Shown one piece after another: positions 44,802-47,802 of a stretch of 47,802 nucleotides of DNA. The stretch lies in assembly GCA_018607135.1 (NCBI GenBank), contig JABBCA010000029.1, positions 13,426 through 61,227 on the forward strand, given 5' to 3'. The position numbers were made by a program, and so were the translations under genes. Below the pieces are notes generated by a model. It had not been told where the DNA came from. It saw only the letters and a program-made list of their open reading frames with translations, and did not search any database. The stretch is from Opitutales bacterium (GTDB lineage: Bacteria; Verrucomicrobiota; Verrucomicrobiia; Opitutales; Coraliomargaritaceae). Each line of letters starts with the position of its first letter. Position 1 is the stretch's first letter.

Positions 44802-47297
44802 TTATTTATTCCGCTTTGGTTTGAACGTGCGTGCTCGTTTCTTGGCGGCTTCGTCTCTAGGTTGGGAATTTGATTTAGGCTTGGGCTTGGTGAGTGGCGG
44901 CTTGGTGCGCTTCTTAGCTGCGGGCTTGCCTGATTTTTTCGCGCTGCGTTGCTGGCGGCGTTCTTTGCGTAAGGCGTTGAGGTCTTTAGGGCTACGTCCG
45001 GCGGCGGATTTGTGATCTTCGGCAGCGACGACTCGAAAATCGATTTGGCGCTTAAAGCGATCGACGCGCTCGACTTGGACTTGGATGTATTGGCCGAGTG
45101 CATACACTTGCTTCTTGCGGCGGCCGATGAGTGCGGTGCCATCTTCGTTAGGGTGGTAGAAGTCGTCGTCGAGTGTGGAGATATGCACCATGCCATAAGC
45201 ACTCGAGTCCGTGAGCTCAATCATGAGGCCGTGGTTTTTGACATCAGAGATCACGGCCTTGAAGGCTTGCTTTTCATCTTTTTGTAGTAGGCGTTCGAAG
45301 AACTCTAGTTGTTTGGTTTTTACGGATTCACGCTCGGCATCGACGCTGTTACGCTCGGTGACACAGAGGTGGTCGCCTAAAGACTCGAGTTTGCCTTGGG
45401 TATAGCGAATGTCTGGCTGATTGGGCGCGGAATCGGCACCGATTTTATGCAAATAGCTATCGAGCACACGGTGAACGATTAAGTCGGAATAGCGTCGAAT
45501 AGGAGAGGTGAAATGAGTGTAATCTGGCTTGGCAAGACCGTAGTGGCCGTCGGCACTGGCACGGTATTGCGCCTGTTTGAGACTGCGTAGAACATGCACC
45601 TTGAGTGTGTGGCCTTGTGGGTGATCTTTGAGCTTCTTGAGGAGGCTGGCCATTTCGCGTGGTTTGCTGAGATTACCACAGCGCACCCCGAAGGTAATCA
45701 TCGTTTCACGCAACTCGTTGAGCTTTTCTTCCTCAGGCTCGTCATGCACTCGGTAGATGCACGGGTAGTTGTTTTTCTTCATTACCTTCGCCACCTGTTC
45801 ATTGGCGGAGAGCATGAACTCTTCGATCAGTTGGTGACTCTCGTCGTTAAATTGCTTTTCGATGCGATCTGCGTAGCCGTCCTCGTCGACGTAGATTTTG
45901 ACTTCGGTCATGTCGAGATCGAGTGAACCTTTACGGAAACGACCTTGGCGCAAGACGGATGCGATGTCCCAGAGTTTTCTAATGTGTTCTTTGAGCGTCT
46001 CCATTTCCTGGTCGCTGACTTCGTCAAGTGAGCGACCTGTCGAGCCCGTTTGGTGCTTGGGTGGCAGCGGTGTCTTTCGGACGGTTTCAAGGTCGTCCTC
46101 ATTCATAAACGCGAAGGCCTGCTTGTAGGTCAGGCGCTTGTTACTGCGAATGACTGTATTGGCAAATTCAACGCCTATGACTTCTGCGTTTTGGTTGTAA
46201 GTGATAAAGCAGGTCTTGGTGAGTCGGTCTTGTGCTTCGACCAGGCTACAGAGTCCATTGGAGAGGGCATGCGGTAGCATGGGAATGACTGTGCCCACTA
46301 GGTAAGTGCTGTTACCGCGTTCCTGTGCTTCGACATCGAGCGGGCTGCCTGGCTTGACGTAGGCGCTCACATCAGCGATGTGGACCCCAATTCGTGTTTT
46401 GCCGCCATCAAGTGCTTCAAGAGAGAGGGCATCGTCGAAGTCTTTGGCGTCATCGGGGTCGATGGTGAAGGTGAAGATGTCGCGACAGTCTTTGCGACCG
46501 ACGGTATCTTCTTCGCGCACGTGGTCTGGGACGTCCTTGGTTTGCTCTTCGACTGCAGCTGGAAATTTAGGGTTGAGGTCGTATTTGTAGAGAATCGCTT
46601 TAAACTCGGCGTCTGGTTCGTAGGTGCGACCGAGCACCTCGGTGATTTCACCTTCGGGGTTGAGGTGTCGTTGCCGCCATTCCAGTAATTTGACGACAAC
46701 CTTGTCGCCCTTTTTAGGTATCGGTAAGATACCAGAGTTCTTCGGATCGGGAACCAAGATGTCTTGAATAATCCGAGGGTCATCTGGAATGACGTAGGTC
46801 GCGTGGCGTCCTTGATCAAGTGAGCCCGTAATGATGTCGCGCGCACGCTTGAGGATGCGGATCACGCGCACGTTCTCTTTTTCGTCGGGATCGTATTGCG
46901 GGCGACGGCTACGCCCTTTACCGCGAAAGACGCGCTTACGCTTGTCGTTTTTACGCGCGAGCACTGTGTCGCCGTGCATGGCAACGCCGGTATCTTCGGC
47001 AGAGACTGGGTAGCCGTCGGCGACCGACATCCCAGGCTTGTTGTCGGGTATGAGTGTTGCCGAGCCGCTTTGGCGGAACATGATGCGACCGCTAATGAGG
47101 TCTGCATCCTCAGGGATACACAGTTTGTCTTTCTTTAGGCGTGCGATCTCTCCGCGCTCCAGCATCTGGTCGAGCAGGCTGTGCGTTTTTTTGACTTCGT
47201 CTGGGCCGAGCCTAAGGACGGAGATGATTTCTTCCCGACGGAGCGGGATGTAGTCTTTAGCACTGAACAGGGAGAGTAATTTTTGGCGTAGATCCAT
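44802..47297 (-). CDS. rnr: Ribonuclease R
   Basis: RNase R is a processive 3'-5' exoribonuclease that can degrade structured RNA. The 831-aa protein has an N-terminal winged-helix/cold-shock region (about 1-150), the RNB catalytic domain with metal-binding [15 protein letters not shown] near 290-305, and [14 protein letters not shown] near 610. The C-terminal S1 domain ([14 protein letters not shown]) is followed by a long Lys/Arg-rich tail (from about 770, ending FKPKRNK), typical for RNase R. The ATG at 47297 begins [11 protein letters not shown]. No clear Shine-Dalgarno sequence is visible. Confidence 0.95.
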
Positions 47298-47601
47298 ATT
47301 TTGAAAATGTATACTAGTCCGCTTTGAGTAGAATGCGAGCCACGATCGCTAACAATCCTATGACGTATTAGAAAATAGAGTTTTTCCTCAGGGACGCATT
47401 GTTAAATGATTTTGCTAAAGCGAGTATGAGGAGTCACTCATGCGGGGTTCAACTAGAAGGTTGCCTACAGCATTTGAGAAGAATGATTTGGGAGCGTTGG
47501 TCTGCGTTCCGATATTGATCTAGAGTCAGTCGCATTGCCATTCAGGTGCCCGGACGGAGCCGGACGCTCCAGATTTCCGAGTGAACGATCGATGATGGGG
47601 T
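47298..47601. other. Intergenic region upstream of rnr
   Basis: No convincing gene. A small hairpin GGAGCCGGACGCTCC lies at 47557-47571, and a repeat-like GGCTCCG stretch precedes it. A minus-strand frame over 47465-47668 has no recognisable features and overlaps the direct repeat, so it is not called. Confidence 0.4.
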
Positions 47602-47747
47602 GAATGAAATGGAGCCGAAAATCGGATTTGTTCACGGAGCGCAGCGCAGAGCCACCGTAGGTGACCACCAGAGACCTACTTTTGTAGTTAGCGTCGTGGT
47701 TTGAATCGATGGTGAGAAGAATGAAATGGAGCCGAAAATCGGATTTG
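47602..47747. repeat. 29-bp direct repeat of the tRNA-Thr 3' end (candidate attachment-site scar)
   Basis: Identical 29-bp sequences, GAATGAAATGGAGCCGAAAA plus nine more bases, lie at 47602-47630 and 47719-47747. The second contains the last 21 bases of tRNA-Thr, including the encoded CCA, and 8 bases beyond it. Such duplications arise at tRNA 3' ends used by tyrosine-recombinase integrases. The intervening 88 bp has no gene. The upstream 12-15 bases also partly match (ATCGATG), so the duplication may extend beyond the identical core. Confidence 0.6.
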
Positions 47748-47802
47748 AACCGACGACCTACTCATTACGAATGAGTTGCTCTACCAGCTGAGCTATTTCG
47801 GC
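47727..47802 (-). tRNA. tRNA-Thr(CGT)
   Basis: The minus-strand sequence of 76 nt has acceptor arms GCCGAAA/TTTCGGC, D-arm AGCTCAGCTGGTAGAGC, anticodon loop TTCGTAA (anticodon CGT), T-arm GTCGGTTCAAATCCGAT, discriminator T and encoded CCA. It ends at the window edge exactly at its 5' base. Its 3' 21 bases are duplicated in the 29-bp repeat. Confidence 0.93.

Follow-up and report, generated by a model that had tools for sequence, protein, structure and literature searches.

The tRNA-Thr gene at the end of the analysed DNA (47,802 nt, hereafter the window) is followed by a repeat unit that belongs to a family of tRNA-tail repeats located behind many tRNA genes. The unit carries no open reading frame (ORF) and resembles the rtT repeats of Escherichia coli. 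We consider, with moderate confidence, that this ORF-less rtT-like repeat was probably made by T-loop-directed GIY-YIG homing elements; GIY-YIG genes found in the same place suggest how such tRNA-tail repeats arise.

Anatomy of the repeat behind tRNA-Thr

The initial annotation had reported that the 3′ end of tRNA-Thr is duplicated in a perfect 29-bp repeat, and our comparison confirmed this: the exact direct repeat comprises positions 47602-47630 and 47719-47747. It can be extended to 43 bp at 91% identity (47588-47630 and 47705-47747) with a spacing of 117 bp, and an exact 29-bp repeat would be expected by chance about 1e-12 times in a window of this length. The contig (G000:C93) stops at the 5′ end of the tRNA gene, and a search for a further copy of the repeat found none elsewhere in the own genome. 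The locus is composed as follows:

47727..47802, minus strand: intact tRNA-Thr(CGT) gene (ARAGORN)
47610..47726, minus strand: 117-bp repeat unit, running from just past the tRNA CCA through the tail copy (repeat comparison)
47689..47710, minus strand: antisense copy of the tRNA-Thr T-arm, imperfect in the window (tRNA comparison)
47673..47680, minus strand: 8-nt sense remnant of the tRNA 3′ half, AGTAGGTC (weak taken alone)
47631..47667, minus strand: hairpin core at the would-be T-loop position, TGGTCACCTACGGTGGCTCTGCGCTGCGCTCCGTGAA
47610..47630, minus strand: tRNA tail copy, the final 21 nt from C56 (T-loop) to CCA
47602..47609, minus strand: 8 nt past CCA common to the tRNA and the copy (start of a further unit)
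47475..47486, minus strand: possible remnant of a third unit, a 12-nt match to the unit start, TCATTCTTCTCA (uncertain)
44802-47297, minus strand: putative RNase R gene (rnr), next in the tRNA direction (read from its translation)

The distance from tRNA-Thr to rnr is 429 bp, and 0.7% of shuffles match as well as the putative third-unit remnant. Read in the direction of the tRNA, the antisense T-arm of a unit is followed by a short piece of the tRNA 3′ half in sense orientation, the hairpin core and the tail. The window unit was recognised alongside the units of relatives by our unit model (R1); it has no GIY-YIG gene, which is present in related units. Across 13 units representing seven tRNA types, the own tRNA was the best match for the antisense part in 11 and for the sense part in nine, the margins of the window unit being small (17 versus 16, and 16 versus 15). 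Pairing between the antisense T-arm and the tail copy is likewise clear in relatives and in E. coli and has a small margin in the window unit; the antisense copy in G019, for comparison with the imperfect one in the window, matches at 21 of 22 positions. In seven tRNA types and in E. coli, tail copies of ORF-less units begin 17-21 nt from the 3′ end, within or at the edge of the T-loop.

Units behind tRNA-Thr in relatives

A genome of the same genus (G002) shares the rnr/tRNA-Thr order, but the two genes are 95 bp apart and there is no second tail, i.e., the site is empty; the two G002 contigs meet within tRNA-Thr. Sequence was thus gained or lost at the site, and to that extent the proposal of an integration scar stands, while its integrase-type attachment scar is unsupported. 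In a second genome of the genus (G001), one contig ends and another starts in tandem units at tRNA-Thr. It has two tRNA-Thr(CGT) genes, its contigs break inside the array (C22 end, C13 start, C94 start; loci L035, L037 and L036), and the tRNA-Thr beside rnr is inverted relative to the window. One unit was found in G019 and two in G031, and a unit lacking the final tail is present in G059 and G060.

The units at tRNA-Thr range from 105 to 185 bp, and the core GGTG.TC.CCT.CGG.GGC.CT is common to them despite these length differences. In each genome the tail copy equals the end of that genome's own tRNA, though the ends vary between genomes. The 88-bp interval, previously suggested as a possible leftover of, or entry point to, an element, is rather a conserved repeat unit that occurs behind many tRNAs than the remains of cargo. 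Relatives carry the same kind of unit with no element alongside. No integrase was found on the contig; in the four genomes searched, the only one close to an array was a 69-aa remnant of a tyrosine integrase in G031, some 3 kb from the tRNA-Thr array (locus L033, G031:C89, 2609-2707).

Recurrence at other tRNA genes

In relatives, tRNA-Thr, Asn, Asp, Phe, Met, Pro and Ser are followed by units that each terminate in the tail of the tRNA concerned; as many as five units form an array. The tRNA surroundings of family-f1 genomes, most of which are drafts, were sampled. In the own genome, the tRNAs with an extra tail copy were Asp, Phe, Met and Ala; in relatives they were Asp, Asn, Met and Pro. 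None of 37 tRNAs in two genomes from other families in the order had one. At the tRNA-Ala gene of one locus (L108, G000:C43:72700-74800; tRNA at 457-532), a 19-nt tail copy lies 774 bp downstream, and a toxin-antitoxin-like two-gene module (PF09720, PF05016) is located between the tRNA and this copy.

As a test, a second core type, GGTTYGACGNAGCGNAGCG, was searched in 43 genomes of the family with one mismatch allowed. The pattern gave 38 matches, compared with seven for the reversed pattern. Twenty of the 25 distinct loci sit 36-105 nt behind a tRNA gene on the same strand (Ser, Met or Pro), and 16 of these 20 have tail copies; the arrays comprise up to five units, each about 139 bp long. One second-core locus without an intact tRNA (L283) still has a tRNA tail on both sides. 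Weak matches to the unit model outside the family, obtained in an order-wide search, had no tRNA near any of those examined and were treated as chance.

Resemblance to the E. coli rtT repeat

The 178-bp repeats at the tyrT locus of E. coli terminate with the 3′ end of the tRNA, and to our knowledge there is no explanation for their origin. At the tyrTV locus of E. coli K-12 we found an antisense T-arm (GGGGAAGGATGAGAAGCTTCGA), a hairpin insert and the last 19 nt of tRNA-Tyr. Both E. coli and several of the units described here have GATGAGAA where a plain antisense copy would give GATTCGAA. The E. coli repeat is annotated as a small RNA, RttR. The RtT covariance model (Rfam RF00391) gave no match at its gathering score in the window or in L046, with the K-12 control scoring 133-138 bits; sub-threshold matches were obtained in L270 (E 0.0037) and, in register, in five units of L276 (0.026-0.74). 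The window unit does lie behind a tRNA and terminate in a copied tRNA 3′ end, but it lacks a match to the model, so we call it rtT-like and do not file it as an RtT member.

GIY-YIG genes behind tRNA genes

Behind tRNA-Met in the own genome there is a small GIY-YIG gene (PF01541, 2.2e-12) together with a 34-nt tail copy. We collected 63 distinct GIY-YIG loci (the 30 best and 20 weaker matches of an order-wide search and 13 from named genomes), from hosts that include Verrucomicrobiota, Acidobacteriota, Bacteroidota, Zixibacteria and Elusimicrobia. Directly upstream of the gene, on the same strand, is a tRNA in 33 of the 63 loci and a tmRNA in two (35 in total); no tRNA was seen in the other 28. 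By a rough estimate (about 45 tRNAs in 4 Mb), such adjacency would be expected by chance in well under 1% of cases. Many of the tRNA-adjacent genes are accompanied by a further tail copy, and the proteins encoded in relatives are about 80-90 aa long. On a tree of the GIY-YIG proteins, in which single forks are unsure because of the few columns, the type of the neighbouring tRNA is clustered (22 changes versus 34.1 when shuffled, with none of 200 shuffles as low). One clade within the family has no link to tRNAs. A GIY-YIG gene at tRNA-Thr was not found in any genome examined.

The two tmRNA-linked genes lie directly behind the tmRNA on the same strand in two genera (L249, G000:C36:2500-6000; L253, G019:C17:1-2600), and no tail copy was found at either locus. 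In GIY-YIG units at six loci (L199, L198, L196, L211, L212 and L233) a G+C-rich hairpin (e.g., CCCGAC..GTCGGG) precedes a tail copy of at least 30 nt and replaces the anticodon arm. In a one-contig genome, three tandem GIY-YIG units lie behind tRNA-Arg(CCT) (L228, G167:C1, 1973508-1974369).

In a composite unit of G001, the core of the window unit follows a GIY-YIG gene that has an in-frame stop. The match between the two cores extends over 21 nt, and none of 2000 shuffles and none of 918 real windows was as good. The core link between ORF-less and GIY-YIG units rests mainly on this one composite. The tails of GIY-YIG units are mostly 30-42 nt long, compared with 17-21 nt in ORF-less units, so the two kinds of unit may have arisen by different mechanisms.

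Origin of the repeat

SegB of phage T6, a GIY-YIG nuclease, is reported to cut within tRNA genes with a preference for RAWTSGAAC and to drive the tandem amplification of a tRNA segment (PMC13096335). We read this motif as the reverse complement of a T-loop; on that reading, the junction of the tail copy in the window coincides with a presumed SegB-like cleavage motif in the T-loop. A GIY-YIG nuclease of the SegB kind would cut the tRNA gene at the T-loop, and repair of the break would copy the element into the cut gene. The incoming element would supply its own tail, leaving the tRNA whole, and the old tail would stay downstream. Arrays could grow by repeated insertion or by recombination between units. 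The window unit would be a derivative without an ORF, either inert today or subject to action in trans. The anatomy of the units, their recurrence at many tRNAs, the T-loop breakpoints, the own-tRNA specificity and the co-located GIY-YIG units are observed, and we infer cutting, transfer and the origin of ORF-less units from those with a GIY-YIG gene. Simple homing does not account for the antisense part.

The main rival to the GIY-YIG model is a functional tRNA trailer, i.e., an rtT-like RNA released from the tRNA transcript and selected for a role as RNA, with no mobile element involved and with copies multiplying by unequal recombination between tails. Such recombination would account for the identity of the tails, and the shared plan with E. 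coli rtT, its annotation as RttR and the sub-threshold RtT matches in related units agree with an RNA role. The folding evidence is divided: the core hairpin has 94.4% of its cells paired and one compensatory pair (23 of 500 shuffles were equal), but single-sequence folds of the whole unit are no better than those of shuffles. The cores also vary between tRNAs, the units are patchily present (absent in G002), and the co-located GIY-YIG genes are left unexplained; we regard a trailer RNA as a rather unlikely, if serious, alternative.

If a tyrosine-integrase island had used tRNA-Thr, its attachment-site scar would explain why the 3′ end is duplicated and the tRNA kept whole, and the integrase remnant near the G031 array could be taken in its favour. 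We nevertheless consider such a scar very improbable, given a contig with no integrase, an interval that is a conserved tandem unit with an antisense T-arm, and cargo-free units of the same plan at many tRNAs. An integrase-borne island should not be concluded from a duplicated tRNA 3′ end alone. If the GIY-YIG model is right, the window unit is an insertion product of a different kind from an integrase scar. Chance or an assembly artefact, to which the end of the contig at the tRNA might point, has a negligible probability in view of the chance expectation given above and of units of the same kind in independent assemblies, including G010 and G167 (one or two contigs).

The GIY-YIG model can tentatively be extended further. 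Undescribed minimal GIY-YIG elements of about 0.3-0.4 kb may home into the T-loops of tRNA and tmRNA genes in several phyla, with rtT-type repeats, including those of E. coli tyrT and the window unit, as their ORF-less descendants; we consider this possible rather than probable.

Comparison with known systems

The free-standing GIY-YIG genes of T-even phages, of the SegB type, share with the elements described here a GIY-YIG domain and a location adjacent to tRNAs, as well as a T-loop-like target motif and tandem amplification of a tRNA segment (PMC13096335, PMC2988022). They differ in being phage genes, whereas here proteins of about 80-90 aa occur in relatives and no such protein is encoded by the window unit; the reports on the phage genes are not known to describe duplicated tRNA tails. 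A literature search of partial coverage gave no account of tRNA-tail duplications next to chromosomal GIY-YIG genes. Insertion of tyrosine-integrase elements into tRNA genes also leaves the tRNA intact with its 3′ end repeated downstream. The repeat described here differs in having neither integrase nor cargo and in being a conserved tandem unit that includes an antisense T-arm.

The rtT repeats of E. coli tyrT/tyrV (RttR, RF00391) likewise form tandem units behind a tRNA, with an antisense T-arm, a hairpin insert and a tail that starts from the T-loop. They differ in the tRNA and the phylum, in unit length (117 bp here versus 178 bp) and in the position of the core, which is at GGTT|C here and after GGTTCGA in E. 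coli. The plan of E. coli tyrT is found again at many tRNAs of a different phylum, where the breakpoints lie in the T-loop and a candidate GIY-YIG enzyme is encoded in the same place; together these make the origin of rtT repeats addressable by a cleavage assay.
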